Source: a virus. Taken from it: DNA of 21,517 nucleotides. Below, piece after piece: positions 1-20,770 of the stretch (its first letter is position 1; each line of letters begins with the position of its first letter). The position numbers and the translations under genes were made by a program. The stretch covers positions 1 to 21,517 of IMG/VR virus record IMGVR_UViG_3300034108_000501; one strand, given 5' to 3'. The notes beneath the pieces are model-generated. The model did not search any database, was not told the DNA's origin, and saw only the letters and a list, made by a program, of their open reading frames with translations.

Positions 1-1659
1 AGAGGTATACAAGAAACTGTTTTACAATATGCTCAACAGAGTTCATCAATATATAACATTGCGAGAACATATGGACTTAAAATACCTGGACAAAGACCGT
101 CAGTTGCTTTAGTTGATTTTTCAATTGTAGTTCCTGTTGAGGGAGATAAAGAAAATATTAAATATTGTGGAATATTAAGAAGAGGTTCACAAGTATACGG
201 AGCTGGACAAGTGTTTGAAACTGCAAATGATATAGATTTCTCAAAGGAAACAAATAGTGAAGGTTTTAGAAATAGAACTAAAACACCAATTCAAAACGCA
301 AATGGTACAACAATAAATTATAGAATTACTAAAAGAGAACCCGTAGTTAATGGTATTACTAAAGTATTTAGAAAAACAATTACTACCTCTGAGTCAAGAC
401 CATTTTTAGAATTATTTTTAACTGAAAAAAATGTTTTAGGTGTTACAAGTGTTTTATTAAAAGATGGACTAAACTATAATAATGTTCCGTCTGTTGAAGA
501 ATTTTTAGGATTAAATAATAGGTGGTATGAGGTTGACGCTTTAGCACAAGATAGGATATTTGTAGAAGACCCGACAGGTTCACAAAGTGCGGCTGGAAAA
601 AAAGTTGGCAGATATCTTCAAACAAGTGATAAATTTATAACTGAATACACACCTCAAGGATTTTTAAAAATGACATTTGGTGGGGGAAGTCAGTCAACAG
701 ATGAACTATTAAGAGAATTTGCTAGAAATGGTACACCTTTAGATTTATCCAAATACTCGAACAATTTATCTTTAGGTTCAACAATCACACCAAATACAAC
801 ATTATTTGTTCAATATAGAATTGGTGGTGGATTGGGGACTAATTTAGGTACAGGGGTTATCAACCAAATTGGTACGATAAATTTTGCGGTTAATGGGCCA
901 AATCAATCAATTAATAGTTCGGTTATTAATAGTATGTCTTGTACCAATGTTACCGCAGCTGTTGGAGGTGCTAATGTACCAACAATTGAAGAGGTTAGAA
1001 ATTTAATTGGATTTAATTTCTCTTCTCAAAATAGAGCGGTAACAATTAATGATTATAACTCAATTTTGAGAAAAATGCCGTCTCAGTTTGGAGCACCGGC
1101 TAAAGTTGCAATAACTGAAGAGGATAATAAAATTAAAGTTAAAATGTTAACGTTTGATGACGAAGGTAAATTAGATTCAAATTTAACAAGTAGTTTAAAA
1201 ACAAATGTGTCAAATTATCTCTCAAATTATCGAATGATTAATGATTATATTTCAGTTGAAAGTGCTGAGGTTATTGATTTAAAAATTGATATTAGTGTAG
1301 TATTAGACTCAACACAAAATCAAGGAGCTGTTGTTACAAATATAATTAACACTGTGGATACTTTTTTTAGTCCTTTAAACAGGAACATGGGTGAAAATGT
1401 TTATATGTCAGAATTAAAAAGATTAATACAATCATTAAATGGTGTTTTATCTATTAGTGAGCTAAATGTATTTAATTTAGTTGGAGGTTTATATTCCTCA
1501 AATCAAACATCTCAACCGTATAGTGATAGTGCTACAAAACAAATTGGATTGATTAATGAAACATTATTTGCAACACCATCACAAATTTATCAAATTAGAT
1601 TCCCAAATAAGGACATTACTGTGAGTACTTTAAATTTAGGTACTGTTAATTTCTCTTAA
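1..1659 (+). CDS. T4 gp6-like baseplate wedge protein (5'-truncated by window edge)
   Basis: The reading frame is open from base 1 to the TAA at 1657-1659 (552 residues visible). The GTG at 211 is therefore internal, not the start; residues before it (for example RTYGLKIPGQRPSVALVDF) read as ordinary protein and match the N-terminal part of gp6-type wedges. Near visible residues 330-365 is the block SSQNRAVTINDYNSILRKMP, characteristic of T4 gp6 and related baseplate-J-like proteins. It is followed by the alternating beta/helix C-terminal fold (about 365-500) with a helix ending in YLSNYRMINDY and a GVLSISELNVF strand. In T4, gp6 dimers form the inner iris of the contractile baseplate and join neighbouring wedges. 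The position at the head of a run of large structural genes fits T4, where gp6 is followed by gp7, gp8 and gp10. The family call is fairly secure; the missing N-terminus cannot be judged. Confidence 0.82.
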   Translation, partial: RGIQETVLQYAQQSSSIYNIARTYGLKIPGQRPSVALVDFSIVVPVEGDKENIKYCGILRRGSQVYGAGQVFETANDIDFSKETNSEGFRNRTKTPIQNANGTTINYRITKREPVVNGITKVFRKTITTSESRPFLELFLTEKNVLGVTSVLLKDGLNYNNVPSVEEFLGLNNRWYEVDALAQDRIFVEDPTGSQSAAGKKVGRYLQTSDKFITEYTPQGFLKMTFGGGSQSTDELLREFARNGTPLDLSKYSNNLSLGSTITPNTTLFVQYRIGGGLGTNLGTGVINQIGTINFAVNGPNQSINSSVINSMSCTNVTAAVGGANVPTIEEVRNLIGFNFSSQNRAVTINDYNSILRKMPSQFGAPAKVAITEEDNKIKVKMLTFDDEGKLDSNLTSSLKTNVSNYLSNYRMINDYISVESAEVIDLKIDISVVLDSTQNQGAVVTNIINTVDTFFSPLNRNMGENVYMSELKRLIQSLNGVLSISELNVFNLVGGLYSSNQTSQPYSDSATKQIGLINETLFATPSQIYQIRFPNKDITVSTLNLGTVNFS

Positions 1660-1719: not shown

Positions 1720-4700
1720 ATGCCGAAGTCATATAGAATACGTACCCAATTAGGTATTAATCAAAATATCCCTGTTAAGATACCTATAGTTTTAGAACAA
1801 AATTTTGATACTTTAGAAATTTTGTCTTTGGCTATTCGTCCTGATGACATCTACATTAGAAGTTGTTCGGATTATGGTGTTGTTTGTGGTAGAATATTCT
1901 GTAATAATGGTTTTGGTATTCCTAATGCGAGAGTTTCAGTATTTGTTCCAATCGAGGACATAGATACACAAAATGACTATATTGCATCATTATATCCTTA
2001 CACAAGTTTTACAGATATTAATGAGGATGGATATAGATATAATCTTTTACCTTACACTCAGTCGCACTCAGGTCACGTACCTGTAGGAACTTTTCCTGAA
2101 CGTTTAGATGTTTTAACAGATAAACCACTTATTCAGGTTTATGAAAAATATTACAAGTTTACAGTTAAAACAAATGAGTCGGGTGACTACATGATTTTTG
2201 GAGTTCCAGTGGGTCAACAAACTTTATTTATGCAAGTTGACCTTTCAGATATTGGTGAGTTTTCATTAACTCCTCAGGATTTGATAAGAATGGGATTGGC
2301 AACTGAAGATACTGTTAATGGTTCAAAATTTAAAACATCAACAAATTATGCTGAGTTACCACAAATTATAACAAGTCAAAAGACTGTTCAGATTGAACCA
2401 TTCTTTGGTGAATTTGAGATTTGTAATTATAACATTGCAAGAGTTGATTTTGATTTAACTTCTGAAGCTAATGTTAAACTTGAACCTACTGCGGTTTTTA
2501 TGGGTTCAATAATATCTACTGACGACACACAAAAAGTTGGTAAAAACTTTAAATTTTTAAATCAAACACAATCGGCATGTAAAGTTAAAAGGACTGCTGG
2601 TGAATTATGTACCATGACCACAGGTCCGGGTCAGATAGTGGCTTTGAGACAAACAATCTTCAATGATAAGGATGGTAGACCAATTTTAGAACAAGCTCAA
2701 TTAGATAATGATGGTAAAGTTATTGACGAAAATGGTGTATGGGTATTAGAAGTACCTATGAACTTAGATTATGTATATACCGATGAGAATGGGGTTAAAA
2801 AAATAAGTAATGACCCTAAATTGGGAGTACCTACAAGAGGTAAATATAGATTTAAAGTTAAGTGGTCTCAATCACCTGCTTTAAGTGACCCAACTAAAAG
2901 AGCGTATTTTTTAATACCAAACATTAAAGAAAGAGGATGGGAAGACCCATTTACTGACCCAATATTAACCCCATTTGGTACATTTGAAGCTACTGACCCT
3001 AGTACTACATTACCTGATGGTGATTTAGTTACTTTAAATCTCCCCGTGACCCAAGGACAAATTATTAGAATTAAAACAGTTCAGAATGTTAAAGATTTGA
3101 CAATTACTGACCCTAATGGTAATCCTTATCTTAGTCAAGTATTTAGAGAACCTGGAACATATATTTTGCAATTTTATAGAGAAGACCCTGCGGCTCAATA
3201 TCTCTTCACATTTTATAATATTCCTTTTGATAGGTTTATGTTGGAAGGTTCTTATGCTTTCAGTTTAGATTGGAATGATTATGCGGTACCTGATGAGGCA
3301 ATTAATTGTAGAGATACATTTTATGATATGTCGTATAATAAAGTTTATACAACAACTCAGTTTATTGATAGGTATCAGGGTAGTCGATTTGCTTGGAATA
3401 CTGTTGGTGTTAAAAAAATTACTGATACAAGTTGTCAGGGGGATTATAACACATTTCCAACTAATGACGCTTTCTATAGGTTTGATTTTATTTATTTAGT
3501 AATATCATTTTTCTTAAATGTATTTAAGTTTCTATCTCTACCGATTTTATTTATTATACATGTTCTTGCGTGGTTAATGACAACTGGTTTACCATTGTTA
3601 TTTCTTTTCTTAATTGCGTACTTGACTGTTCAAGCTGCTCAAGACGCTAGTGCGGCGATTTCTTTTTACTCTAATGTTGTAACTGTGGGAGTTGGTCTTG
3701 GTGCGGTTACAGTATTTAACTGGGGAATTCTTGCTCTTGCGATTTTGTACACCATATACGTAGCAATATATATAGGTTTAGCGGTTTTATTGACGACCCA
3801 ATTAGATAAAATTAAAGAGATTGGAAATAAATTGAAAAATTTTACTCTACCATTAGTTTTATATACCGATGATGGATGTGAACGATGTAAGTGTAATTCA
3901 TCAACATCTATTGACACTGAAATGGATGGTTCATTAGGTTCGTTCCCACAACCACCTGGTGACCCTCAAACATCTTTTTTAATTAATTCAACAGCGACTG
4001 TGACATATAATGGAATAGCTGCAAATCAAATAAATAATTACGCTCAAGTATTCGGAGGTTCTTTAGATGTTAATATAAAAAGATTCCCAATCCAAGAAAC
4101 GTATTATAATAGTGATGAAGGAGAATTAACTCTTACGGGTGAATTTTATACAACAACTGTATTACCGACTTCTGAGTTATATAACTTATTTAATACTAAA
4201 TCAAAATATTTTAATAACGTTCCTGGTTTTGGTGATGGTTTCGAACTCGGTTGGAACCAAATAAAAGTTAAATGGTTTCCCACTGAAAATCCGGCACCTA
4301 CTGCTCACCACTTAGATAATATTATGGTTTTAGTCTTAGATAAATCAGCGCCTGATTATACATTAGGTCAATTATTATCATTTCAAGACGATGAGTTAAG
4401 TGGAGATGCAAATAAAAATGTAACAACTGGTACAACTATTTTTCCGGCATCAATAAATGTAAATTATGCTAACCCTGATTTTCTGTCAAATAACGGGTCT
4501 AATTTAAACACAACATATATTGTACCTGTTTTATCTTCAACAACATCTGTTTCTGGAACAAGTTCTTTTGCTTCGGATGTTGAATACTTCCAAGTTATCA
4601 CAGGAATGACTATTGGACAATACGAATCATTAGCAAATCCAAATCCTGACGTATTAAGTTTTGGTGTTAGATATCTCCAAAGAATTACTCCGTCAATCGG

Positions 4701-7395
4701 TCAAAGTGTACTTAAAATTCCAATGATTAGGACATTAGGTGGAAATAACGCTAGTAACGTAGTTTATGGTAATGATTCAACAGACATTTATTTAACTAAT
4801 TATATTACTGATTATGATGAATATAAAATAGTTTTATTACAACGTGGTATAGATGCTCATTCACCTAGAATCCCTCAACAGATTGATTTATCTCGAATAT
4901 TTGGATTTCCTACATATAATAGTGGTTTAGTTATTAGTGGAGAATTTAAAATGAATTATCCTATTACAGGAACAATTTATTCAGAAAGACATGATAACAC
5001 ATTAAATAATACTTCAAACTTATTTAAACCAAGTTATGCTTTTACCTATACTCAGAATGACTATATTACTACTGGAAATACTACATTACCATCATATTAT
5101 TCATCGGTAGACTCTAATTTGTTTAATACGTTAAATGGCGGATTAACTTATAATGGTAATAATATAAATAATCCTTGGGATTTTATTAACCCCACCGACA
5201 CTACAATTAATTATGTTGGCACAAATATTTTAAATGATATTACTGTTCCTAACGGAGAGGTTTTGACAGTTAATTCTTCAAATGTATGTAACGAACCTTC
5301 AGTAACCACATCATCACCAAATTCATTTAATCCCCCATCTTATCATGTAAATTCACTTACAAAAATATTCACAAATCCTCAAACTATATATACCCTATAT
5401 TTAAATGCTCTTGGGTCGTTTTCATTTTACACTAAACAAGTTGATAATCGATGTACATCTAACCGTAATGTTTTAGGGTACCAAGGTAATGAAGTTGTTG
5501 ATGGAGCGTCGTTCATGAGAAGTAATTTTTCATTTAATGGGGAAACAGGAATTTTTTGGGATGTGCCTGTTTTTAATACTATGCCAAAATTTACTGATGG
5601 TTCAGGCGCTTTAGGTTCTGCCATTCAAGACTCAAATTATCAGGCCCCATATAATGGTAACCCAAAATTTTTCTCAACACAATATTCGACAGGAATGACT
5701 ACTTCTTTAAGTAATGATTCAAATATTGTATTTAGGTCTGATAGGTTACCTACCTCAACAACTATACAAACTGCTAGAATTAATAGTTTCCTATTACATC
5801 AAAATAGTCAATTTGCTATTTTTAAAGTTAGTGATGAAGGAGCGTCGGAACAAGTTATTACTATTGATACTACACCTCAAACAAATAACGAAAATTCACA
5901 AATTTTTACACCACCAAGTTACGCTGCGGTACTTGAAAGTTTAAGTAATTGTAGTGAAGCCGTTCCGTTACCTTGTTATGGTCTTAATTCTCAAAATCAA
6001 CCAATTATATTACCTAATTGTGTTGAGGATTATATTGACCCATCTGATTCTAAAAAATACTTTTTAAAGGGTTATGGATGTTATAATTTTGTGTCAAAAC
6101 CAATAACTACTTTAGGTAAAGATATTAAAAATATTGTTGAGTTATTCACAAGAATTAATTTGAATTTAGCATTATGTTTTGACATTACGTCACATAACTT
6201 TACTAATCAATATGTTAATGGTACACTATACGCTTACCCATTCCAAAACCAAAGAATATTTGATTTAAATAATAACCCATCAAGTTTATATTGTACGGAT
6301 TTAATTTATTTACATGACCAAACAAGTAATTTTTACTACAGAAGTAGTCCATTCCAAACACCTGACCAAACTAATCCTGAGACAGGAAGTTTTATTGGTA
6401 AGAAGAATAATAGAGGAAATGCTACTGGTACAGGTAATGATAAATTTTTAGGTTCACCGACAACATTATTGGATTTAGGACCAAAATCGGATTTTATACA
6501 AGAGTTAGTGTATAATGATGATTATGATGGGTATATTGTTGATAAAGTTAAATCAACATCATTCCAAGCAATTAGTGATATATTAAATTTATTTATATTA
6601 AGTAGATTAATTAACACTTCATTTAATGAACAAATTACACCTAATACTGAAAGTGGGGATGAAGGTAGTAATGACCCATCGGTTAAGGCATTATTTTCAA
6701 ACTCAAGATGGAATAATAACGGAGCGACTTTCGTACCTGGATATGTTGATGGTGATTACTCACAAATGATTGCTATAAATTCACAATTTGGTATAACTGA
6801 ATTTTCACCTGAATCGTATAGTTCTGATTCGGTATACATTGGTCAAAATACTGTATCTCTTGGTGGTGGTGCATCAATTGGTTTTCCTCTATTTGGTTTG
6901 TTACTTACAGGTAATACCCAAGATAGAGATTATATCTCACCAAGAAGAACTATATGGAATAGCGGAGGAACATTAACAAATAATCAACAATTAATTGATT
7001 GTTGGTTTACTAATATTACAACTAATTCTCAGGAAGTTCCATTTTATCAATGGTCATTGGATTATCTTAGTCAGACACCTCAAAATATATTTGGTAGTCA
7101 GTCAAACAATTATTACACAAATGACAATTCGTTTTTCTCTTACAAATACCAAAGTTTAGATAGATTAAATCCGGCGTCACAATATTTCCAAAATGACCAA
7201 GCTGATGGTTATTACATCAGAGGTACTCAAATTAATTTTGATAACAACGGAGTACCAACCGAGTCAATACCACAAAACTTTGAACAAACGTTTTTGGTTG
7301 GAGCACCATTCTATTTCTATTTTGGGTTGAAAAAAGGTGCAAGTGCAATGGATGTGTTCATAACAAAATATATTAATACTGAAGTAAATGTCTGA
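1720..7395 (+). CDS. giant baseplate-region virion protein with central membrane-like segment
   Basis: 1891 residues; the largest gene, directly after the gp6-like gene, where T4 carries gp7, but I see no gp7 signature. Residues about 40-170 (GVVCGRIFCNNGFGIPNARV, then TNESGDYMIFGVPVG) look like a carboxypeptidase-regulatory/Cna-B type beta sandwich. A second such segment is around 310-395 (GVWVLEVPMN ... RGKYRFKVKW). Residues about 588-692 form an almost uninterrupted hydrophobic block that could hold three or four transmembrane helices. It is followed by DDGCERCKC near 714-723, a possible metal or disulphide site. From about 760 the protein is Asn/Ser/Thr/Tyr-rich and beta-like. A segment near 1485-1550 (VNGTLYAYPF, FYYRSSPFQ) looks like a conserved core. 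The final 8 nt overlap the next gene (ATGTCTGA). No signal peptide is seen. A structural role is inferred from size, context and composition; membrane insertion is a hypothesis. The stop is the only TGA among the ten genes' visible stops, all others being TAA. Confidence 0.6.
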   Translation: MPKSYRIRTQLGINQNIPVKIPIVLEQNFDTLEILSLAIRPDDIYIRSCSDYGVVCGRIFCNNGFGIPNARVSVFVPIEDIDTQNDYIASLYPYTSFTDINEDGYRYNLLPYTQSHSGHVPVGTFPERLDVLTDKPLIQVYEKYYKFTVKTNESGDYMIFGVPVGQQTLFMQVDLSDIGEFSLTPQDLIRMGLATEDTVNGSKFKTSTNYAELPQIITSQKTVQIEPFFGEFEICNYNIARVDFDLTSEANVKLEPTAVFMGSIISTDDTQKVGKNFKFLNQTQSACKVKRTAGELCTMTTGPGQIVALRQTIFNDKDGRPILEQAQLDNDGKVIDENGVWVLEVPMNLDYVYTDENGVKKISNDPKLGVPTRGKYRFKVKWSQSPALSDPTKRAYFLIPNIKERGWEDPFTDPILTPFGTFEATDPSTTLPDGDLVTLNLPVTQGQIIRIKTVQNVKDLTITDPNGNPYLSQVFREPGTYILQFYREDPAAQYLFTFYNIPFDRFMLEGSYAFSLDWNDYAVPDEAINCRDTFYDMSYNKVYTTTQFIDRYQGSRFAWNTVGVKKITDTSCQGDYNTFPTNDAFYRFDFIYLVISFFLNVFKFLSLPILFIIHVLAWLMTTGLPLLFLFLIAYLTVQAAQDASAAISFYSNVVTVGVGLGAVTVFNWGILALAILYTIYVAIYIGLAVLLTTQLDKIKEIGNKLKNFTLPLVLYTDDGCERCKCNSSTSIDTEMDGSLGSFPQPPGDPQTSFLINSTATVTYNGIAANQINNYAQVFGGSLDVNIKRFPIQETYYNSDEGELTLTGEFYTTTVLPTSELYNLFNTKSKYFNNVPGFGDGFELGWNQIKVKWFPTENPAPTAHHLDNIMVLVLDKSAPDYTLGQLLSFQDDELSGDANKNVTTGTTIFPASINVNYANPDFLSNNGSNLNTTYIVPVLSSTTSVSGTSSFASDVEYFQVITGMTIGQYESLANPNPDVLSFGVRYLQRITPSIGQSVLKIPMIRTLGGNNASNVVYGNDSTDIYLTNYITDYDEYKIVLLQRGIDAHSPRIPQQIDLSRIFGFPTYNSGLVISGEFKMNYPITGTIYSERHDNTLNNTSNLFKPSYAFTYTQNDYITTGNTTLPSYYSSVDSNLFNTLNGGLTYNGNNINNPWDFINPTDTTINYVGTNILNDITVPNGEVLTVNSSNVCNEPSVTTSSPNSFNPPSYHVNSLTKIFTNPQTIYTLYLNALGSFSFYTKQVDNRCTSNRNVLGYQGNEVVDGASFMRSNFSFNGETGIFWDVPVFNTMPKFTDGSGALGSAIQDSNYQAPYNGNPKFFSTQYSTGMTTSLSNDSNIVFRSDRLPTSTTIQTARINSFLLHQNSQFAIFKVSDEGASEQVITIDTTPQTNNENSQIFTPPSYAAVLESLSNCSEAVPLPCYGLNSQNQPIILPNCVEDYIDPSDSKKYFLKGYGCYNFVSKPITTLGKDIKNIVELFTRINLNLALCFDITSHNFTNQYVNGTLYAYPFQNQRIFDLNNNPSSLYCTDLIYLHDQTSNFYYRSSPFQTPDQTNPETGSFIGKKNNRGNATGTGNDKFLGSPTTLLDLGPKSDFIQELVYNDDYDGYIVDKVKSTSFQAISDILNLFILSRLINTSFNEQITPNTESGDEGSNDPSVKALFSNSRWNNNGATFVPGYVDGDYSQMIAINSQFGITEFSPESYSSDSVYIGQNTVSLGGGASIGFPLFGLLLTGNTQDRDYISPRRTIWNSGGTLTNNQQLIDCWFTNITTNSQEVPFYQWSLDYLSQTPQNIFGSQSNNYYTNDNSFFSYKYQSLDRLNPASQYFQNDQADGYYIRGTQINFDNNGVPTESIPQNFEQTFLVGAPFYFYFGLKKGASAMDVFITKYINTEVNV
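3481..3795 (+). other. coding segment for the hydrophobic, probably membrane-spanning, block
   Basis: Encodes residues 588-692 of the 1891-aa protein. Hydrophobic stretches lie near 590-617 (with FLNVFKFLSLPILFIIHVLA), 620-637 (LPLLFLFLIAYLTV), 648-666 and 668-692 (WGILALAILYTIYVAIYIGL). They are separated by a short polar turn (QAAQDAS), and the block ends in a charged helix (DKIKEIGNKLK). The flanking protein is soluble and beta-rich, so the block stands out sharply. Helix number and topology cannot be fixed by eye. Confidence 0.7.
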
Positions 7396-9235
7396 TTTAG
7401 GTAATACTCGATATATTAAAGGTTCTTTAAGATTTAAAGGAGCAACTGATGAAGATATCAGTTTACAAATCCCTATTGAAAATACTATTAAAGAACTTGA
7501 AGAATATTCAAGAAATACAAATTTAAATTTAGCTCAATTATTTGACACTGAAAGACAAGCTTCAACAATTTTTGTTCCTACTTGTAAATTTAATATGGTT
7601 TTTGAAAATGCCTATGAAGGTGTTGCTGGTAAGTTGGTTAACAACCAAAATTATCCATATCCACCATTTAATAATAATTTGTATTATTCTAAGGCTTTAG
7701 AAGATAAACAAAGTCAGATTGGATATGACTGTACCGAACCAATTGCTTGGAGAGGATATCCTCAGTACGATGAATTTAAATTTATTAGAACTGATTACGG
7801 AATACCGGGTTGGACAATCGGAGCAAACAAACATATTAAATTTCAGGCAAGTGAAACTACATTTTATAATTGGTATTTTCATTTAACGTACGCTTTTAGT
7901 TCTACAACGGCAACAACGATGCAGTACCAAACAGGTACAACAACAACAAATAGTTGGACTGCTGGTGATGGTATACCATTTATAATGAATAAAACAAATG
8001 ATGGTGATGGGAAACCTATGTTGAGATTTGTATGTCCATGTCCACACGGATTAACCCCGGGTGAATATGTTTCGTTAAGTTTCCAAACAGGAGGTAATTG
8101 TAATAACATACAAGCGTTTGAAGTTTATAATTTAGGTAATGGTTTTGTCGACTCTGAACTTACAATTTTTGATGTATATGATGTTGGGTATTTGTGTAGT
8201 GTTTTTACAAATGATGTACAAGGTACATTTAAAAGAGTGTTAGATATTAACAATATTGAGGAAACAACCTCAAAGTATTATGTAAGATTACACAAGATAT
8301 TAACACCATATCGACAAGCGATAATTAATAACTCAGGGTTTGAAAATAACGCTTTAAGAACCAATAAAAAGTTTGAATCCAAATCATTACAACCACCATA
8401 TTTAAATAATCAAGGTAGAGTTTCGGTTAAAGAAGATAGTTTATCTTATAATGTTTCTTTCCAAGAATACCTTGATATAAAAGGAATGATTGATAATCAG
8501 AGAAGACCTATTTCAGAAATATTTGTTACAGTTATTAACAGAGGTTTTTTTGGTTGGTTTAACAAACCTAACGATTCAAGTAATGTTTCTTTAAGACAAG
8601 GTTGGGATTTTAATTTAGGTCCACAATTAAATAACTGGTGGTCAAGTCAATTTTCATTAACAAATGTTACAACTAACTTTTGGAATAATACTGGAACATT
8701 TGATAACTACGCACAAAACGCAACACCATTAGTTTCACAAAGAAACTTTTATTATAATGGAAATTTAAATACAGGTGATACAATTTACGGTGACTATTGT
8801 GAATGGAATGATTTTGACCAAAGAGAGAGGGTAATATCTGATTATTATCATAAGTTTACTTTTAATCCTGATAATTTTTCTATTGGCCCTGATATTCAAA
8901 ACCCACTCGGATATTATTATAAGCCTCATCATAGTTTAACTATTAAAGAATATTCACCATATGTTGAACAGAGTGATGAAGATAATCCACAAAATTATAG
9001 AATTGAAAATTTCCCAAATTACGCATATTACTCAGTATATAATAATGATTTTAGGTGGAGAGATTTATACCCGTATGGTTTTATTGATGAAACTGATATT
9101 GGTGTTGATTATCCATTTATGAATGGTAGACATTATTTATATGATAATTTCTTTTTTAAAATAATACCTGAAGGTACTAATGTGTTTAACACTAGTAGTT
9201 CAGTTAACGACCCAATAATTGACGGATGTGAATAA
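7388..9235 (+). CDS. phage structural protein, function unassigned (615 aa)
   Basis: Starts at ATG 7388, overlapping the previous stop by 8 nt (ATGTCTGA), which suggests coupled translation. No family is recognised with confidence. The N-terminus has a polar helix (IPIENTIKELEEYSRNTNLN). The rest is aromatic, Asn-rich and probably mainly beta. Features include a CPCPHGLTPGEYVSLSF segment near residues 216-232, a Trp/Phe-rich stretch (RGFFGWFNKPN) near 390, and a C-terminal FRWRDLYPYGFIDETDIG block near 555-575. There is no signal peptide or membrane helix. Its place between the giant baseplate-region protein and further tail genes suggests a baseplate or tail-fibre-connector component. It is longer than T4 gp8 (334 aa) and I see no gp8 motif, so I do not equate them. 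Confidence 0.55.
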   Translation: MSDLGNTRYIKGSLRFKGATDEDISLQIPIENTIKELEEYSRNTNLNLAQLFDTERQASTIFVPTCKFNMVFENAYEGVAGKLVNNQNYPYPPFNNNLYYSKALEDKQSQIGYDCTEPIAWRGYPQYDEFKFIRTDYGIPGWTIGANKHIKFQASETTFYNWYFHLTYAFSSTTATTMQYQTGTTTTNSWTAGDGIPFIMNKTNDGDGKPMLRFVCPCPHGLTPGEYVSLSFQTGGNCNNIQAFEVYNLGNGFVDSELTIFDVYDVGYLCSVFTNDVQGTFKRVLDINNIEETTSKYYVRLHKILTPYRQAIINNSGFENNALRTNKKFESKSLQPPYLNNQGRVSVKEDSLSYNVSFQEYLDIKGMIDNQRRPISEIFVTVINRGFFGWFNKPNDSSNVSLRQGWDFNLGPQLNNWWSSQFSLTNVTTNFWNNTGTFDNYAQNATPLVSQRNFYYNGNLNTGDTIYGDYCEWNDFDQRERVISDYYHKFTFNPDNFSIGPDIQNPLGYYYKPHHSLTIKEYSPYVEQSDEDNPQNYRIENFPNYAYYSVYNNDFRWRDLYPYGFIDETDIGVDYPFMNGRHYLYDNFFFKIIPEGTNVFNTSSSVNDPIIDGCE

Positions 9236-11489: not shown

Positions 11490-12395
11490 GTGGCAACAGG
11501 TAATTACGGAACAATAAGACTAGCGGATGTAAGTCCCGCAGATGTTGAAATAATAGTTCATTATACGGCATCACGCGACCAGACTGAAAATTTCACTCTT
11601 TTCACGATACCAAATTCAAATCTTACACCATATTTCAATAATACAAATACAGGTGGGGATGCAAACCAAATATTAGGAGGTTTGTATAATTTAAATTTAC
11701 CTGCAAATCAATTTAATAATTTAGGGATTTATACATTGATTTTAAGACCCGCACAAATTAATACAGTAATTACTGATTGTGGTATTTTAAGTTCGTTACC
11801 TAATGTTAAAGGGATAGTTATTGATTTATCAAATGTGCCGTCAAATTTTTTAACAAATTTCGCAAATCAAGGATTGGTTGGATTTAGAGTTGAATATTAC
11901 GACCCGACAGACAACACTAAAATTCCTAACTTTTATAGAATTATTACTTCTAATTTTTATTGTGAACCTGTTACTCAAAACTTAACAAACACACAAGACA
12001 AATCTATTAGATATATTTATTCTCAAGGTTCATCTAATTTAGTATTTTGTACATTGTCACCTTCATCCGCACCAACAAACAGACCAAATGCTATACCTAA
12101 TATTGGACAACCAAATCAAAATATTGTAATTACAAATACATTTTTTAACCCAATATCTTTAGAAGTTGAAATTGTTGAACATGATATATCAACATTAGCA
12201 ATTGCTCTTTATGGTAATCAAACTAAATCTATTGATGATGGAATTTATACTATCTACGATACTTCTAATAACATCTATAAACAATATAACTTATACGAAA
12301 TTAGAGACCAATTAAATCAATTGTTGTATGAGGTTAGACAAGATAGAGGGGATGATATTGATAGAACTAAAAACTTTGAAACTATTATTGTTTAA
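11490..12395 (+). CDS. phage tail/baseplate-region protein, unassigned (301 aa)
   Basis: Begins with GTG at 11490 (MATGNYGTIRLADVSPADVE). The frame has no plausible ATG nearby, and the N-terminus resembles the MAT start of the following gene. The protein appears to be mostly beta: N-terminal half about 15-160 (EIIVHYTASRDQTENFTLF, LGIYTLILRP, VKGIVIDLSNVPSNF) and a second beta segment about 190-245. It ends with a charged helix near 265-295 (NLYEIRDQLNQLLYEVRQDR) that could pack in an oligomer. No catalytic motif, signal peptide or membrane segment is visible. The stop shares TAATG with the 984-aa gene, so the two products probably act together. Function unknown; structural by context. Confidence 0.55.
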   Translation: MATGNYGTIRLADVSPADVEIIVHYTASRDQTENFTLFTIPNSNLTPYFNNTNTGGDANQILGGLYNLNLPANQFNNLGIYTLILRPAQINTVITDCGILSSLPNVKGIVIDLSNVPSNFLTNFANQGLVGFRVEYYDPTDNTKIPNFYRIITSNFYCEPVTQNLTNTQDKSIRYIYSQGSSNLVFCTLSPSSAPTNRPNAIPNIGQPNQNIVITNTFFNPISLEVEIVEHDISTLAIALYGNQTKSIDDGIYTIYDTSNNIYKQYNLYEIRDQLNQLLYEVRQDRGDDIDRTKNFETIIV

Positions 12396-15349
12396 TGGCA
12401 ACATATAAATGTCCACCACAAGGACCTACAGGCGCTAGTACATTTTCCGATAATATTGTCGGACTACAACTTGTGAAAGGTGGTGGATTAACTACTGCAA
12501 CTTTTGACTTTACTATTGCAGTTGTTGAAAAGTCCAATCGAAGCTTTGATATTGGGACATTCTCGACACCTATATCATTAAATGACTTAGGTATTGATAT
12601 AGGAAAATCATTTCAGGTTTTTCAAAACAATTTTAAGGTAATACCAAATTTTGATAGTACAAAAATTACCAATTTTACTGCTTATGGTTCTTTAACAAAA
12701 AGATTTGAATCGTCAATAGTTAATATTATTAATTATTTTCCAGCGGCTTTAGAAATAATTAATTTAAGAGAAGGTTATACAACAGGTAATACTGCTCAAA
12801 ATATAACATTTTATTCAAACGAAAATGTTACAGAATTAGATTTACCAATAAGTGCTATAAGAAATCCTTTTGAAATTAATTTCACAGTAAATGCAACTAG
12901 TGACATTAATAGTTTACCATTTGAAATTTCACGATATAGGAATCTTAAAGAAACATTTCCGGCGTATGTTTTAATAGTAAACGGAAACCAATATCCGTTA
13001 TCTTATTTATTCCCATCACAAAGCTTAACTGCCGGTACGTTAACAATACAGGTTGATGGAAATCCTTTTTCAGGTAACACAACATCAGTTGATACAATAG
13101 TTATTAGACCAAATGATGTTATTGTTAATGAAGTTTTTAATCTTAATTTAGATGAGGTCGATGAATTTCTTTTATATAGGTACGTCACTCCAATCTATAC
13201 TGCTCAATTTCAAATACCAACTGAGGCGGATAATGGTAATATTTTTACAAGATATGAAAATGTTACTTGGACTTTAGATGGTTCATGGAATATAGATATA
13301 AGAACCGAAAACTTTTCGGCGTATATTGAAAAGTTAAATCAGATTGGTAATGAATTTGACAGTCAACAGACAGATTTATTATCAAGGTTTTATGTGACGG
13401 ATGCTTTTCAGGAATTTGATACACCTGATAAAAAAGTTGAAAAAACTTTAAAAATATACGGAAGAAGTTTTGACGAAAGTAAAAAATACATAGACGCTCT
13501 TTCGTTCATGAATTCTGTTAATTACAATGTTGGGAATGATATTCCATCTAAATTATTACCAAATTTAGCGGAAACTATAGGATGGTCAACAAATATATCA
13601 CCAATAACTAATGTTAATTACATTACTTCCGTATATGGAACAACTCAAAATGCTTTTCCAGGATACTCAACAAGTCAAACTATTGATGATTTAAATAGTC
13701 AATTTTACAGAAATTTAATTTTAAATTCTGCGTATTTGTATAAGTCAAAAGGTACAAGAAAGGCTATTGATTTCTTGATGAATTACATTGGTGCTCCTGA
13801 AGCATTAATAGAATTTAATGAGAATGTTTATGTTGCGGATAGTCCGATTAACATAGAAAGATTTAATGAGTTATTCCAACAAATTTCAGGTGGTGTATTT
13901 ATACCTGAAACACCGTCATTTGACCCCTTAAATATATATAGTTTCCAAGGTAACCCATTTACTGCTTATACCTCAACGACAACAATAGAAACTGTGACAA
14001 CTACGATTGATGATTACCCTATTGATAGTCAGGGATACCCAAGTCCAAGGGCAAATACGGAGAACATGTTTTTCCAAAAGGGAGAGGGATGGTTTGAACA
14101 GACTCCGGAACATAGGTCTCCTGAAGAATTAATAATAACTACTGATTCATTTACGGGTCAAAACTTAAATGTTCAAACGCAATTAGAACCATTTACATAT
14201 GGTCAAAAATATTTAGAAACATTTAGAGATTTCCCTTTCTTAAATTACGGATTTTCACTTAAAAAAGTTAATGATAATAAAAAGAGTTGGAGTGACTTAC
14301 AACCACCATTAAGAAAAAATACTGACAATTTATTTGATGCTTATTATACAGTTAGTGATGATAGATTAGTATTGAATGTTAAAAATGTTGATTTGTTTTT
14401 AAATCCTGCTCAAGCTTTAACTTATGATGTTTGGTATCTATCAAACACACAAAACTATCCAATACCATCATCAGGGTTATCTAATCCATATCCACAAGTT
14501 GGAGGGATAGATTGGACATTTATAAATCCTCAACCACAATATGAAACCTTCTTCGAGTTTTATAAAACTTTTTGGAGTAACATGATTAATGTGAGAAATA
14601 GACAATTCTCCTCTGACGGTAAGACGAGTGGATACCCTACATTACAATCTTTATTTTGGAAATATCTTACTATGTACCAAGATGTTGGAATTCAAAACAA
14701 TAATTTTAATTACCAAAACATGATTGAATATATTAATGGTTTGGGTGATTCATGGATAAGATTGGTTGAACAATTTATACCTGCTACGACTATTTGGAAT
14801 ACTGGAACTAAATTTGAAAATTCTATTTTTCATAGACAAAAGTTTGTTTATAGAAGACAAAGAATGTGTCAAATAGGTTCTGAGGATACTGTAGGTCCTA
14901 TTAGTAATGGTACTATTGAGGGTACTGTTGGGGCTCCGTCAATAACATATCCGATTTTATTTGTTGACCAAGGTGCAGTTATTGAGGCTTATAACATGAC
15001 GTTACAAGATTGGATTATTGATAATGAATGTAGTCCTAACCTAAGTACTGTTTCAGTTTATTTTGGTTTTTCATTTACCATAAATGGTGTTAATTTTGTT
15101 TATCCTGGTAATCCTGAAAATTATTTTAATGGTGCTACCTTAACAAATGAACAATGGTATGATATTGTAATTGAAGGATTTACTGATATACAATCTCAAT
15201 TGTTTGATGTTGGAATTGTTGCTACTTATGATTATTCATATCCTAATTTATATTATATTTTAGAATCTAATAATGTAACATTCTTTGAAACCGCACCAGT
15301 GTCTACTGACATAAACATTATAGTTAATTTAACAACAAGCTGTTTATAA
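12395..15349 (+). CDS. large tail protein with tail-protein-I-like core (984 aa)
   Basis: Begins in the TAATG junction at 12393-12397. Residues about 1-300 are a beta-rich N-terminal region. Residues about 328-485 look helical and carry a tail-protein-I-like (P2 gpI/T4 gp7-type wedge) pattern: LSRFYVTDAFQEF, then LLPNLAETIGW, then FYRNLILNSAYLYKSKGT and RKAIDFLMNYIG, i.e. a helix, the KGT turn and a short helix before a beta hairpin. A Thr-rich linker follows (TSTTTIETVTTTIDD, near 525-540). A conserved-looking block TGTKFENSIFHRQKFVYRRQ lies at about 802-821. The last ~100 residues form a separate alpha/beta tail ending SCL. Proteins of the gpI class connect the baseplate wedge to tail fibres, which fits a gene lying just before the adhesins. 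The gpI assignment is by pattern only; the long flanking regions are unassigned. Confidence 0.6.
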   Translation: MATYKCPPQGPTGASTFSDNIVGLQLVKGGGLTTATFDFTIAVVEKSNRSFDIGTFSTPISLNDLGIDIGKSFQVFQNNFKVIPNFDSTKITNFTAYGSLTKRFESSIVNIINYFPAALEIINLREGYTTGNTAQNITFYSNENVTELDLPISAIRNPFEINFTVNATSDINSLPFEISRYRNLKETFPAYVLIVNGNQYPLSYLFPSQSLTAGTLTIQVDGNPFSGNTTSVDTIVIRPNDVIVNEVFNLNLDEVDEFLLYRYVTPIYTAQFQIPTEADNGNIFTRYENVTWTLDGSWNIDIRTENFSAYIEKLNQIGNEFDSQQTDLLSRFYVTDAFQEFDTPDKKVEKTLKIYGRSFDESKKYIDALSFMNSVNYNVGNDIPSKLLPNLAETIGWSTNISPITNVNYITSVYGTTQNAFPGYSTSQTIDDLNSQFYRNLILNSAYLYKSKGTRKAIDFLMNYIGAPEALIEFNENVYVADSPINIERFNELFQQISGGVFIPETPSFDPLNIYSFQGNPFTAYTSTTTIETVTTTIDDYPIDSQGYPSPRANTENMFFQKGEGWFEQTPEHRSPEELIITTDSFTGQNLNVQTQLEPFTYGQKYLETFRDFPFLNYGFSLKKVNDNKKSWSDLQPPLRKNTDNLFDAYYTVSDDRLVLNVKNVDLFLNPAQALTYDVWYLSNTQNYPIPSSGLSNPYPQVGGIDWTFINPQPQYETFFEFYKTFWSNMINVRNRQFSSDGKTSGYPTLQSLFWKYLTMYQDVGIQNNNFNYQNMIEYINGLGDSWIRLVEQFIPATTIWNTGTKFENSIFHRQKFVYRRQRMCQIGSEDTVGPISNGTIEGTVGAPSITYPILFVDQGAVIEAYNMTLQDWIIDNECSPNLSTVSVYFGFSFTINGVNFVYPGNPENYFNGATLTNEQWYDIVIEGFTDIQSQLFDVGIVATYDYSYPNLYYILESNNVTFFETAPVSTDINIIVNLTTSCL

Positions 15350-15350
15350 C

Positions 15351-17495
15351 ATGTCATTTTTTTATAACATATCGGTAACTGGAGATTGTACTAATAGTAA
15401 CTTAGGTAGTTTTAGTATTGATTTTACAAGTGGTAATACACCTTATATTGTTAATTGGTTAACACCATTATACGCATCTGCATCAACAACAGGAAATTAT
15501 TCGATTACAGGATTAAGTGCTGGAACTTACCAATTTTATGTGAACGACTCATCAGTTCCTGTTAATCAATCTTCAGGAGTTATACAAGTTTATATTACAT
15601 CCGCAAGCACCTTATTTATACAAGATGTTCAAAATACTTCGTGTGGATTATCAAATGGGTCATTAAGTGTTAATACATACACCAATTATGGTACTAATGA
15701 AATAACATTATTTAAAGATAATGTACAATATAGTACCGCAACGGTTACAAGTGCTAATCAATATACATTTGTTAATTTACCTGAAGGTGTTTATTATGCG
15801 ACTTGTACTAATTATGGTGGATGTTATGGAGAGTCTGAAAATGTTGTACTTTACAATACAAGTTCTATGGATTTTGGATTTTATGTTGTAAATAATCCAG
15901 CATGTTCACTTACAAATGGTAAAATATTTGTTACAGGTGTTACAGGAATACCACCATATACTTATACATGGTCATCAAATATTAGTGGTTCTCCAACAAC
16001 ATCATCTGTTACAGGTTTAACTAGTGGTAACTATTTTTGTACCGTTACTGACTCACAAGGATGTTCAATAACAAAAACAACTACAGTATTAAATGCCGAC
16101 CCGATAGGTTTAATAACATATACATTAGTTTCACCGACATGTACAGGTAATACAGGTTCAATTACTTATTACATCTCAGGTGGTACAGGACCTTACTTTT
16201 ATTTATTAAGTAATGGTGACTCGTTAGTTAGTTATGACCAATTTTTAACTTTTAGTGGTTTATCGGCTGGTAATTATACGTTAGAAGTTACTGACGTTGC
16301 TTTATGTACTGCAACATTTAATGTTGTATTACAAACACCAAATACTTTCTTTGTTGTTTCGGAATCAATAACTGACTCAAGTTGTAACAATAATTCAGGG
16401 GTTTATAATATTCAATTACAAGGTGGGGCAACACCTTATACTTATAATTTTACAAACAATAGTGGTTATACATTAATTAACACTGTTAATATTCCAAATC
16501 AATCTTTTGGCGATTTATCTTCAGGTAACTATACAGTAACGATAAATGATGCGACATCTGCTTGCACATATACTAAAAACTTTTCAATTAATACAAGTTT
16601 ATCATTTGCAACTTCAATAACTGCAACTACTACAAACTGTAGTTTTAATGGTGGTAGTATCTACTTAGAAGTTACACCTGTTGTAACAGGATTAACTTAT
16701 ACATATAGTTTATCTAATGGTGTTACATCAATTCAAACTATATCAACGGCATATACATTTTCTAATCTAACCGCAGGAGTTTATGACTTAATAGTTACTG
16801 ACTCAAATTATTGTAGTCAAAGTTATTCAGTTAATATTATAGACACAAGCCCTATTAATGTTCTTTTGTATGGTACAAGTTGTGGTAATGGTAGTGGGGG
16901 TACAATAAGCGCAATGATTAATTACACTGATTTTCCTGTTGATTTAACTTGGAGTAGTAATGTAAATGGGCAAACAGGTGTTTATCTAACAGGATTGACT
17001 GCTGGAACATATACATTAACAGTAAGTGCTGCTACAGGATGTGTAACAACTAAAAGTAAAACAATAACTTGTAATCCTTTAATTAGTTATTCTAAAGTAC
17101 AACCTGTTAAAGTATCCACACCAACATATATTCCTACAAAAACATATGATTTTAGAAATATGTTATTTACAGGGTATGCTAATTTAGTTAGTGGACATGA
17201 TGATTGTAAATTAAATTACGCTCAATTTAATTGTGATATTGAAATAACTGGCACTACATATTCATCAGTATTTTATGTATCACCTAATTTAAATTCAGTA
17301 CCATCGACTGATAATTTTATAACGGCAATTGAGTCATTACTATCTTTAATACCTAATTTACAGAGTACTGAAATTAATCCTGACACTAATACTATTGTTA
17401 TTGAGTCTCAAGTTGTTGGTGGGGTTGAAGTATATAAAGATGAATTATTAACAATTAGTGTTAGAGTAGTTTATAATATTTCATGTAGAACTTAA
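15351..17495 (+). CDS. SprB-repeat adhesin-like tail protein (714 aa)
   Basis: Starts one base after the previous stop. Residues 2-576 are seven divergent ~75-85-residue repeats, beginning near residues 2, 88, 175, 253, 331, 414 and 502. Typical landmarks in each are a Cys followed by NG or GS about six residues later, a G-x-PY-x-Y turn, a GLSAGNYT-type strand (GLTSGNY, GLSAGNY, DLSSGNY, NLTAGVY, GLTAGTY) and a closing VTD-x-x-x-C. This is the SprB repeat pattern known from the Flavobacterium gliding adhesin SprB and many Bacteroidota surface proteins. Residues ~577-714 are a distinct tail starting with a Val/Thr/Pro segment and ending NISCRT, probably the attachment or cap domain. There is no signal peptide or T9SS C-terminal signal, consistent with a virion protein rather than a host secreted adhesin. 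The likely role is binding the host surface or forming an extended fibre; this is inferred from repeats and location. Confidence 0.7.
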   Translation: MSFFYNISVTGDCTNSNLGSFSIDFTSGNTPYIVNWLTPLYASASTTGNYSITGLSAGTYQFYVNDSSVPVNQSSGVIQVYITSASTLFIQDVQNTSCGLSNGSLSVNTYTNYGTNEITLFKDNVQYSTATVTSANQYTFVNLPEGVYYATCTNYGGCYGESENVVLYNTSSMDFGFYVVNNPACSLTNGKIFVTGVTGIPPYTYTWSSNISGSPTTSSVTGLTSGNYFCTVTDSQGCSITKTTTVLNADPIGLITYTLVSPTCTGNTGSITYYISGGTGPYFYLLSNGDSLVSYDQFLTFSGLSAGNYTLEVTDVALCTATFNVVLQTPNTFFVVSESITDSSCNNNSGVYNIQLQGGATPYTYNFTNNSGYTLINTVNIPNQSFGDLSSGNYTVTINDATSACTYTKNFSINTSLSFATSITATTTNCSFNGGSIYLEVTPVVTGLTYTYSLSNGVTSIQTISTAYTFSNLTAGVYDLIVTDSNYCSQSYSVNIIDTSPINVLLYGTSCGNGSGGTISAMINYTDFPVDLTWSSNVNGQTGVYLTGLTAGTYTLTVSAATGCVTTKSKTITCNPLISYSKVQPVKVSTPTYIPTKTYDFRNMLFTGYANLVSGHDDCKLNYAQFNCDIEITGTTYSSVFYVSPNLNSVPSTDNFITAIESLLSLIPNLQSTEINPDTNTIVIESQVVGGVEVYKDELLTISVRVVYNISCRT
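15354..17085 (+). repeat. seven tandem SprB-like protein repeats
   Basis: The repeats are visible at protein level only; I find no long identical DNA units, so the array is old or strongly diverged. The first two copies are the most degenerate (copy 1 lacks the closing Cys, copy 2 lacks the PY turn). Copies 3 and 4 match best, for example GVTGIPPYTYTWSSN with GLTSGNYFCTVTDSQGC. Copy 5 has a longer middle loop. Confidence 0.7.
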
Positions 17496-17521: not shown

Positions 17522-18526
17522 ATGAGTTTAATTACTATTGATAGTGTTTCAGGTATTCCACCGTATCAAATATATGTTTGTGATATTTTCCAGTTTAATT
17601 GTCAATTTATAGGAACTTTCACGGATTACATTCCACCATCAGTTAGTTTTCCTGTGCCAAGTGGTTATACAACAGCTCCTCAATTATTAATTAAGATTGT
17701 TGATTCAACGGGATGTGTATTTACACAAAATTACATGTGTTTAACACCAACTCCAACACCAAGTATTACACCGACAAATACTCCCACATTATCTTTAACA
17801 CCATCGAATACTCCAACACTAAGTGTTACTCCATCATTTACTCCAACACCAAGTATTACTCCGTCAATTACACCAACAAATACAGTTACACCAAGTATTA
17901 CTCCGACTAAGACAGTAACTCCTACGGTTACGACAACACCTACACCAACTCAAACACCTGAACCTTTTTTATATGCTTACTTATTCATTGAACCATATTC
18001 AGGGTCATCAAGTATTGGTTCTTATATGAGTTCACTCGGTTCAAGTTTTTATGGTTTTACAAATACTTCTCAACCAAGTACATCAGCATCTACGTTTGAT
18101 TTAGACATGAATAGATATGTTAATTATTCAGGATGGACATCAGGTTCATTCCCGTCAATTATAAAACAGACAGTACCGATTACAACAAGTGGTTTGGATT
18201 CATATGGTAACCCAATAATTGCTTACAACTTTTTAACAACAAAAGTACCTGAAAATACTGTAGGTTCTAAGGCGTGGTACACATGGATAATACCTGTGGT
18301 ATATACTAATTACAAATATCAAATTGAGATTGATTTAGGAATTGTAAATCCAAATGTTTTTACAAGTGTGAAAATGGAACCAACAATATATTCAAACACA
18401 TTTAATTATACTGGTGGAACTATTGTTAAGGCGGAATATAAAGTTTACACAACATACCCATCAAATACATTTGAATTGGATAATACTTACGACCTTTATT
18501 TTAGAGGAAGTAAGGTTGATATATAA
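17522..18526 (+). CDS. stalked tail protein: SprB-like N-terminus, Thr/Pro stalk, globular tip (334 aa)
   Basis: Three parts are clear. Residues 1-74 resemble one shortened SprB-like unit: [13 protein letters not shown] near the start and [15 protein letters not shown] at the end match the PY turn and VTD-x-x-x-C ending of the repeats in the preceding gene. Residues 75-148 are a Thr/Pro/Ser stalk with a loose ten-residue period ([50 protein letters not shown]), likely an extended, rigid, possibly glycosylated spacer. Residues 149-334 are a globular, aromatic-rich domain ([29 protein letters not shown]) ending [12 protein letters not shown], of no family I recognise. No signal peptide is present. 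It is probably a virion appendage with the C-terminal domain at one end and a SprB-like unit at the other. Only 9 nt separate it from the next gene. Confidence 0.6.
17744..17965 (+). repeat. Thr/Pro/Ser stalk repeat, ~30-nt period
   Basis: Encodes about seven imperfect ten-residue units of the form TP(T/S)xTxTxS(I/L/V), with one shortened unit (TPSI). DNA copies such as CCAACACCAAGTATTAC recur within the tract, so length changes by slippage or recombination are plausible. Confidence 0.7.
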
Positions 18527-18535
18527 TTATAGTAA

Positions 18536-20770
18536 ATGAGTTTCCCATATAAAAATCCAATATCGTCTATCCAACTAAATGGAACACAAAGTGTCCCAAG
18601 AAACAATACTTATGGTACTACTTTCAGTGTTAACAATACGGGTGGTTATATGGAGGTTTTCAGTTTATCTGACCTTTATTATACAATACCAACAGGAACA
18701 ACGGGAAGTATTGAATATTCAGGTAATACTATTCCTATTGAGTTTACAAAGGGAACGGGTGCCGCTTGGTCTCCTGATGTAATTACATTAGCTTCAGATA
18801 ATATTTCATCAGGTAGAAGACGACTTGGTATGTTGGCTTATGTTTATGAGGTTGACCAAGTTTATCAATATCATATTAATGATTACGAGACTTTATTTAA
18901 TGCTGCGACTGCTAGTACGGGATGTGCTCAGGTTTCTGATTTTGGAACAACAATAAATAATAAAACTGCTGCGGGTCAGTCGTTTATTAATTCTTGGACT
19001 GCTAACACTATTGAAGATGTTAGTGGTGCAACATATAGTACTGCGGCATGGAGAAAGTTTTCAACGGGAGCTTTAACTTCAGGTGTTAATTTATATGGTT
19101 CGTTCTATGATACATCAGGACAAACGGCGACACTAATCAATACCGCATATCCTATGAGATTGAATAGTACTGCTGAGGCTAGTGGTATTACGATTGTTTC
19201 AGGTTCACAAATCACTTTTGCTAGTGCTGGAACTTATGATATTCAATTCTCGGTTCAATTAAACAATAATAAAGGTGGTGGTGCGGGTGTGGATGTTGAT
19301 ATTTGGTTAAGACAAAATGGTGTTAATGTTCCTAATACCAATACAAAAGTTTCAGTTCCTACAAACAACCCATATTTAGTTGCTGCTTGGGATTTTTTAA
19401 TTACTGTAACTGCCGGAACATATGTTGAATTAATGTGGGCGACTAACAATGTCAATATTTCATTATTGGCAGAGGCATCAACTGCTTTACATCCAGCAAT
19501 TCCTTCTTTGATTGTTACCGTTATGCCTGTTGGTGGTGGAGGTGGTGGTAGTGGTTCTACAGGTGCTTCGGGAAGTGCGGGGTCATCAGGAAGTTCGGGT
19601 TTATCTTTTGGTTCATCAGGAACGTCTGGGTCATCAGGAAGTTCGGGGAGTTCGGGTTCTACAGGTTCGTCAGGAACAAGTGGTAGTAGTGGAACTTCAG
19701 GTAGTTCTGGTACATATGGTTCAAGTGGTAGTAGTGGTTCTTCAGGGTCAAGTGGAAGTACTGGCTCTTCAGGAACTAGCGGAACATCAGGTTCAAGTGG
19801 CTCTTCAGGAACTAGCGGAACATCAGGTTCAAGTGGTTCTTCAGGAACTTCAGGTAGTTCTGGTACATCAGGTTCATCGGGTAGTTCCGGTTCTGCCGGA
19901 ACATCAGGTACAGGATTTACCACAATCACAAGTCCGGGTAGTAATAGAGTATTAACATCTGATGGGACATCTAATGCTGCGGTTGCTCAGGCTAGAATGA
20001 CTTTTGATGGTACTACATTATCAGTTACAGGTAATACAAGTGTTAATGGTAATATAAGTACTACAGGTGTAACATCTTTTGGTAACGGAACATTTACAAA
20101 GGCGGGGTCAGCTACTGGTGATGTTCTTCTTGATAATAATAGTACAGATACTCCGGGTGTTTTGTTTTATTATGCTAATAATTCAAACTTTGGTATTGAT
20201 AGTTTTAATGGGTCATTTGATGTTCTAAGTGGACAGTTAGTTCGTATCACAAATAATTTAAATGAAGCAGGAGGTGCGGTAAAAATGGCTATAGATACCA
20301 CAGGTAATGTGGTATTTACAGGATTTATAAAGGCTAATGCGTGGAGAGCCGGTCAGGTAATTAACGATATTATTTTGAGTAATACTGAGGTAACTGTTAG
20401 TACTACAACTATTGCTACCAGTACTTCGGATACTGATTTTGTTACTTATAGTTATACACCATTAAGTTCTACAAGTTATTTAGTAATACATTATCACTTA
20501 GCATCTTTTGATTTTACTTCTGGTACAGGTAATGATTCATACATATCTAGAATAAAGGTTGATGGTGGTGAAATAACCTATTCAGTACAAAGCACGGTTA
20601 ATGGATTTCGTACAGGTGTTTTATTTCCATTAACGGGTAGATACACTAACTCTAATACAACCGCAAAATCGATAGTAGTTGCATGTCGTAGAAGTTCTGC
20701 GGATGATAGTATCACAATAGTAAATTCATCTACTTCAATGTGGTTGAGAATAACAGAAGTTGCAAGATAA
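18536..20770 (+). CDS. tail fibre: C1q-like domain, collagen-like Gly-Ser/Thr rod, C-terminal knob (744 aa)
   Basis: Residues 1-200 form an N-terminal region without recognised family, probably for attachment. Residues about 205-330 have the C1q/TNF-like jelly-roll pattern seen in many phage tail proteins: FASAGTYDIQFSVQLNN, VDIWLRQNGVNVPNTNTKVS, then AAWDFLITVTAGTYVELMW. A GGGGGG hinge (333-338) leads to about 40 G-x-y triplets (340-459), mainly G-S-S and G-T-S, interrupted once by GLSF. Residues 460-744 start with SPGSNRVLTSDGTSNA, then Gly/Asn/Thr-rich fibre strands (TTLSVTGNTSVNGNISTTG, TGNVVFTGFIKANAW), and end in a compact domain closing with MWLRITEVAR. The whole reads as a trimeric receptor-binding fibre. 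There is no visible C-terminal autoprotease or intramolecular chaperone after the knob. The stop shares TAATG with the next gene. Confidence 0.75.
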   Translation: MSFPYKNPISSIQLNGTQSVPRNNTYGTTFSVNNTGGYMEVFSLSDLYYTIPTGTTGSIEYSGNTIPIEFTKGTGAAWSPDVITLASDNISSGRRRLGMLAYVYEVDQVYQYHINDYETLFNAATASTGCAQVSDFGTTINNKTAAGQSFINSWTANTIEDVSGATYSTAAWRKFSTGALTSGVNLYGSFYDTSGQTATLINTAYPMRLNSTAEASGITIVSGSQITFASAGTYDIQFSVQLNNNKGGGAGVDVDIWLRQNGVNVPNTNTKVSVPTNNPYLVAAWDFLITVTAGTYVELMWATNNVNISLLAEASTALHPAIPSLIVTVMPVGGGGGGSGSTGASGSAGSSGSSGLSFGSSGTSGSSGSSGSSGSTGSSGTSGSSGTSGSSGTYGSSGSSGSSGSSGSTGSSGTSGTSGSSGSSGTSGTSGSSGSSGTSGSSGTSGSSGSSGSAGTSGTGFTTITSPGSNRVLTSDGTSNAAVAQARMTFDGTTLSVTGNTSVNGNISTTGVTSFGNGTFTKAGSATGDVLLDNNSTDTPGVLFYYANNSNFGIDSFNGSFDVLSGQLVRITNNLNEAGGAVKMAIDTTGNVVFTGFIKANAWRAGQVINDIILSNTEVTVSTTTIATSTSDTDFVTYSYTPLSSTSYLVIHYHLASFDFTSGTGNDSYISRIKVDGGEITYSVQSTVNGFRTGVLFPLTGRYTNSNTTAKSIVVACRRSSADDSITIVNSSTSMWLRITEVAR
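19553..19909 (+). repeat. collagen-like Gly-Ser/Thr-Ser triplet tract
   Basis: A low-complexity tract of 9-nt-periodic codons for G-S-S, G-T-S, G-S-T and a few G-S-A triplets with glycine at every third position; almost no proline, unlike animal collagen. One exact 24-nt block recurs at 19691 and 19844. The antisense strand is open as a Pro/Glu/Leu/Val-rich frame, which is a compositional by-product. Confidence 0.85.
19765..19836 (+). repeat. exact 36-nt tandem duplication in the collagen-like tract
   Basis: Two adjacent identical 36-nt units (19765-19800 and 19801-19836), each starting CTCTTCAGGAACTAGCGG. They keep the reading frame and add 12 residues (four triplets) per unit. Perfect identity suggests a recent duplication compared with the diverged rest of the tract. 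Confidence 0.85.

Follow-up and report, generated by a model that had tools for sequence, protein, structure and literature searches.

Why does a giant protein encoded in a T4-like baseplate module carry a greasy, conserved stretch of about 105 residues? This question is raised by the 21.5-kb virus record analysed here (the window, meaning the whole stretch of DNA). Membrane-active segments have been described in tape measure proteins, in short tails, and in GTA-type tips, and we found none for a T4-like baseplate module. The stretch suggests that the baseplate touches or enters the cell membrane. If this is true, a widespread group of uncultured phages would have a baseplate that binds membranes, beyond its role as a trigger.

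Genomic Context of the Giant Protein

The window starts with a gene for a gp6-like baseplate wedge protein (1..1659, plus strand), the 5' end of which is lost at the window edge. The product matched Baseplate_J at E 6.6e-8 and PHROG 219, a family of baseplate wedge subunits, at E 2e-18. Behind it, an open reading frame on the plus strand (1720..7395) encodes the giant protein of 1891 aa, which falls outside known families and had no match in profile searches of Pfam, PHROGs, and PDB. An earlier note, made from the sequence of the window, had described a 1891-residue protein with a hydrophobic block at residues 588-692 behind a gp6-like gene, and this description was confirmed by the reading frame, by hydropathy, and by the Baseplate_J and PHROG matches. 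The next conserved gene of the module (7388..9235, plus strand, 615 aa, function unassigned) was present 3' of the giant gene in most loci that were long enough. In about 120 loci the giant occupied the same position, with gp6 before it and more conserved genes of the tail region behind it. In L010, a longer contig that overlaps the window and encodes a 100% identical protein, the gene order was nrdB, nrdA, gp25-like, gp6-like, giant. The genes for the small and the large subunit of ribonucleotide reductase (L010:2164-5576) are located immediately 5' of the gp25-gp6 pair.

The slot after gp6 would also fit a gp7 or Afp12-type wedge protein, but the match to the wedge region of Flavobacterium phage immuto fell on a different reading frame of the window (12395..15349, plus strand, 984 aa). 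This frame was distantly matched to immuto35A_161 by hhalign with a probability of 94.6 and an E value of 6.6e-8, and both share a KSKGT/KTKGT stretch. The giant itself had no homology to the proteins 3' of gp6 in phage immuto. We consider the 984-aa protein the better candidate for a gp7/gpI-like wedge protein, a reading that relies on a motif which we take to be typical of gp7. Beside this candidate, the giant seems to be an additional component of the module.

The constant gene order also bears on the idea that the giant is a non-structural membrane protein that lies in the tail operon by coincidence. Although it did not match known structural families and we assume it to be part of the particle because of its operon, we regard such a coincidence as highly improbable, given its fixed place between gp6 and conserved tail-region genes in all these loci, its predicted transthyretin-like N-terminal domain, and a length of 1600-2800 aa in most relatives.

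Distribution of the Family

A scan of IMG/VR with the giant protein as query retrieved 40 loci, and with an alignment as query at least 548 relatives were found, so that the family has more than 500 members in viral contigs. Among 50,697 phage records there were 0 relatives, and several family members, used as queries against INPHARED and PLSDB, retrieved nothing. The single clear structural relative in BFVD was A0A8S5LA66 of Myoviridae sp. ctPuP5 (E 5.8e-42, 29% identity), which is like the giant in structure but is uncharacterised and so does not indicate a function. In these searches we encountered no known baseplate protein of such layout, in agreement with the earlier note, whose author was aware of no description of one among T4-type phages. 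Relatives of gp6 are present in Microcystis phage Mel-JY01 as well as in LR756508, a phage of 484 kb, yet the genes behind them missed the family profile and were devoid of a hydrophobic block.

Long and compact family members share a C-terminal signature (FYFYFGLKKG..., 7309..7392, plus strand) in the alignment. Individual loci deviated from the common arrangement. The giant of L007 (L007:1165-6714) is broken into two frames of 807 and 1042 aa, by a sequencing error or in reality, and that of L066 (L066:2236-10773) has a large additional stretch and reaches about 2840 residues. In L071, L104, and L112, gp6 and the giant are separated by an inserted gene whose product has 145-172 aa and is not a membrane protein; it is the same gene in L071 and L104 and another one in L112.

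A Conserved Hydrophobic Block

The hydrophobic block extends from aa 588 to 695 (3481..3804, plus strand). Kyte-Doolittle analysis of the giant gave two segments, aa 588-641 and 653-695, and D589, K603, and D642 were the only charged residues within aa 588-692. The best 19-residue window of the protein (2.41) was inside the range of shuffled sequences, most of which exceeded 1.6, and this peak by itself is insufficient to set the block apart. The best 50-residue mean (1.98) was higher than in all 2000 shuffles of the same protein (maximum 1.73). Stronger proof than the shuffles comes from conservation, which rules out chance composition: of 177 distinct homologues that were long enough to judge, 173 had the block in the corresponding position, as scored with fixed residue ranges in a set from which identical sequences were removed and near-identical ones kept, so that the sequences are not independent. 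In 121 of the 177, a CxxCxC motif was present behind the block as well. His614 inside the block (3559..3561, plus strand) was 94% conserved in the clade alignment.

The best 21-residue Eisenberg mean reached at least 0.68, a membrane-level value, in 167 of the 173 blocks (119/121 with CxxCxC and 48/52 without). The hydrophobic moment was low, with a median of 0.20 for blocks with CxxCxC and 0.34 for those without. This Eisenberg value was reached by none of 375 neighbouring tail proteins (relatives of gp6 and of the proteins encoded at 7388, 9219, 10343, 11490, and 12395) and by none of 144 sequences that make up the C-terminal remainder of the giant. The comparison with the neighbouring tail proteins supports a membrane-type character of the block. 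Among the relatives, the hydrophobic length varied from about 40 to 110 residues with peaks near 40-50 and 90-105, as if the block consisted of one or two helical units.

Cysteines on Both Sides of the Block

Cys572 (3433..3435, plus strand) precedes the block and was conserved to 100% in the alignment of 72 sequences of the CxxCxC clade. The motif CERCKC with Cys720, Cys723, and Cys725 (3877..3894, plus strand) follows the block and is also invariant in the clade. It had been placed near residues 718-723 in a region ending at 3890; the motif is present, but it is located at 720-725, two residues further on, and an end at 3890 cuts through it. Block and cysteines, the two elements that had been singled out before, were thus both conserved among the homologues. 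C49, C235, C297, and C530 are further invariant cysteines of the clade, and C287 was found in 99%. Since C572 and CxxCxC flank the block on opposite sides, a common metal site would draw the ends of the block together. Judging from their joint conservation, C572, C720, C723, and C725 probably form one such site, binding Zn or an Fe-S cluster.

Predicted Structure

An AlphaFold2 model was calculated for aa 1-1180 from 72 sequences, without membrane or partners (mean pLDDT 74.5, pTM 0.48). The N-terminal half was predicted to be mostly beta, with two long helices in addition. The first spans aa 590-651 (3487..3672, plus strand) with ten-residue pLDDT means mostly of 71-89; the second, aa 668-706 (3721..3837, plus strand), represents a clade-dependent half of the block that is absent from many relatives. 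For L137, a full-length member of the sister clade, one helix was predicted at 448-487 (mean pLDDT of the model 54). Both cysteine stretches of the giant, aa 566-588 and 712-747, had pLDDT values below 50, including the loop with CERCKC. The expectation of three or four membrane helices agreed with about four hydropathy peaks of the block but not with the two long helices of the model.

The region of aa 35-252 (1822..2475, plus strand) has a predicted transthyretin-like or carboxypeptidase-regulatory-like fold. The similarity to carboxypeptidase N in VIA-align was modest, as Z was below 8 (Z 6.7, rmsd 2.0, 81 residues aligned), and PF13620 remained below the Pfam cut-off in 6/6 family members scanned. 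A beta-sandwich was predicted for aa 416-505 (2965..3234, plus strand), a poorly conserved, variable region of the window's clade, with Z of about 6 to sandwiches of the GOLD/C-CPE type. Foldseek of the giant model against PDB gave nothing below E 0.001 and no baseplate match, although one may still exist. A gp27-homologous hub domain as in the RcGTA megatron was not among the structural matches listed for the aa 1-1180 model.

Very long continuous helices, predicted with fair confidence (590-651 and 668-706 in the giant, 448-487 in L137), would suit a bundle of three or six chains that is buried in the baseplate and never meets lipid, and helical core bundles exist in T4 baseplates. The block is, however, hydrophobic on all faces with a low moment, unlike a water-exposed bundle, and a segment whose length ranges from about 40 to 110 residues, and which can even be absent, is a poor fit to a precise core. 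A buried core of this kind seems unlikely to us. Confident burial of all helices in a soluble domain, which the earlier note had named as a refutation, was not seen in the model; for a single chain this result stays compatible with burial in an oligomer. Made without membrane or partners, the prediction does not discriminate a membrane segment from a bundle.

Relatives without the Block

Four divergent sequences of the 177 judged homologues (L119, L123, L135, and L139) were without the block. L135 is encoded directly between gp6 and a 7388-type gene, L119 immediately before a 7388-type gene, and L139 immediately after a gene of gp6 size. Homologues that lack the block at the same locus had been named as a refutation in the earlier note, and such homologues were found in part, with L135 placed on both sides and L139 and L119 on one side. 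L139 has an acidic linker in place of the block, which is present in L130, the sequence closest to L139 in the N-domain tree. Since these four relatives are without the block, at least two of them at the same locus, the compared sequences indicate that the block is an insert that can be excised, and they argue against its being the fold core. Its absence at the locus also means that it is dispensable for the function of the locus in some phages.

A Small Membrane Protein in the Sister Clade

In L147:4604-4975, L157:4556-4987, L131:4709-4975, and about 50 other loci, a gene for a small membrane protein is located between gp6 and the giant. These loci belong to the clade of giants without CxxCxC. 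The small protein starts with MGCxTC or MECKTC, has 69-178 aa, and contains a near-invariant proline within a hydrophobic segment of about 34 residues; a Cys near the N-terminus was present in 52/53. It matched no Pfam or PHROGs family. The profile of the small protein detected it in 5/5 larger records of the sister clade and in 0/15 searched records of the CxxCxC clade, all 15 of which are fragments. The block-less L135 and L139 had no small membrane-protein gene at the locus. We also considered that CxxCxC was repeatedly lost together with a gain of the small gene. In the N-domain tree the small gene marked essentially one clade (53/54, two changes), which means one evolutionary event instead of repeated co-variation.

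A dedicated small membrane protein encoded beside the giant in the sister clade would speak for an assembly anchor: at a late stage of infection the helices would be embedded in the inner membrane of the host, where they would retain the growing baseplate together with the small protein. A precedent is the cyanobacterial thylakoid CIS, which is anchored by Cis13 and an extension of Cis12 (PMC8894136). We nevertheless find such an assembly anchor rather doubtful: helices that belong covalently to a structural protein could quit the membrane only at a high cost when virions are released, and the small protein occurs in one clade only and was not found in the clade of the window, as far as the records reach.

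A Possible Membrane-Active Hairpin

Our preferred explanation, to which we give somewhat less than an even chance, is that the giant is a T4-like baseplate-module protein with a membrane-active hairpin, which is released at host contact to anchor, to seal, or to open a path. We counted in its favor the location in the gp25-gp6 module, the conservation and hydrophobicity of the block, the invariant cysteines, the apparent nature of the block as an insert, the small membrane protein of the sister clade, and the gp23-like capsid protein encoded in three large related records. The helical hairpin would be inserted in a mostly beta, multi-domain baseplate component. It would exit the fold after Cys572 and re-enter it at Cys720/723/725, with the metal site probably pinning both ends. 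In the virion, the hydrophobic helices would probably be tucked into the baseplate, away from water. On host contact they may swing out and insert in the envelope membrane, and the inserted helices could anchor or seal the tail or help to open the path. The order of these steps (tucked, released on a change of the baseplate, inserted) is borrowed by analogy from phi29 gp9 and the megatron.

Several points speak against the hairpin. The place of the giant in the particle is an assumption, and the metal site lies in stretches that were modelled with low confidence. The predicted 62-residue helix of the window protein by far exceeds the thickness of a bilayer. A contractile tube with its spike should breach membranes, and this leaves the need for a baseplate hairpin unclear. 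Also, a few of the relatives encoded at this locus manage without the block.

The hydrophobic, pore-forming L loop of the phi29 tail-knob protein gp9 folds into helices that act on the membrane during infection (PMC6542822). Both gp9 and the giant are tail-module proteins with a hydrophobic insert, the place of the giant in the virion being assumed, and phi29 differs from the phages of the giant by its short, non-contractile tail. The host of phi29 is Gram-positive, and we know of no comparable cysteine bracket in gp9. The megatron of RcGTA and roseophage R4C, a large baseplate protein of several domains, has helices in its iris/penetration domain that are predicted to span the membrane, and the hub protein beside it binds an iron-sulfur cluster through four cysteines (PMC7296036, PMC10276861). 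In the megatron, the penetration domain is N-terminal and short, in a tail of the siphophage type, while the block of the giant is located mid-protein; the cysteines of the megatron system sit in a separate protein, and those of the giant in the same chain as the block. In the cyanobacterial thylakoid CIS, extensions of baseplate and tail fibre tie a contractile tail to the membrane; Cis12 has only a putative amphipathic helix, and it is the fibre-like Cis13 that contains the transmembrane helix (PMC8894136). This is a cellular system, whereas the giant belongs to phage genomes.

More speculatively, and in our view improbable in this full form, the family may represent a new class of contractile-tail baseplate, in which several copies of the giant insert cysteine-pinned hairpins into the envelope membrane of the host as an anchor or gasket round the tube and the sister clade uses a smaller hairpin plus the small membrane protein. 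The 105-residue segment, the set of cysteines, and the natural relatives without the block make these ideas testable.

Phages, Hosts, and Other Genes of the Window

The giants are encoded by hundreds of uncultured T4-like phages whose hosts are probably Bacteroidota; for the window phage itself we infer such a host. Three records among the largest (236-362 kb; L131, L157, and L183), which are relatives of the window phage, contain genes for a gp23-like capsid protein and for bS21. Genes for bS21 are likewise present in freshwater Bacteroidetes bS21 phages (PMC9723584). The relatives of gp6 include Flavobacterium phage immuto. Terminase_6C gave 0 matches in ten records and was uninformative.

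Further genes are located towards the 3' end of the window. The tail-region protein encoded at 15351-17495 has SprB repeats, a repeat of the Bacteroidota surface-adhesin type, and Hoc-like similarity. It is followed by a 334-aa protein (17522-18526) with a low-complexity region rich in TPT/TPS repeats and by a tail-fibre-like protein (18536-20770) with collagen-like GSSGTSG repeats. An antisense reading frame of 224 aa (19255-19929) over the collagen-like repeat is probably a mere shadow of the repeat.
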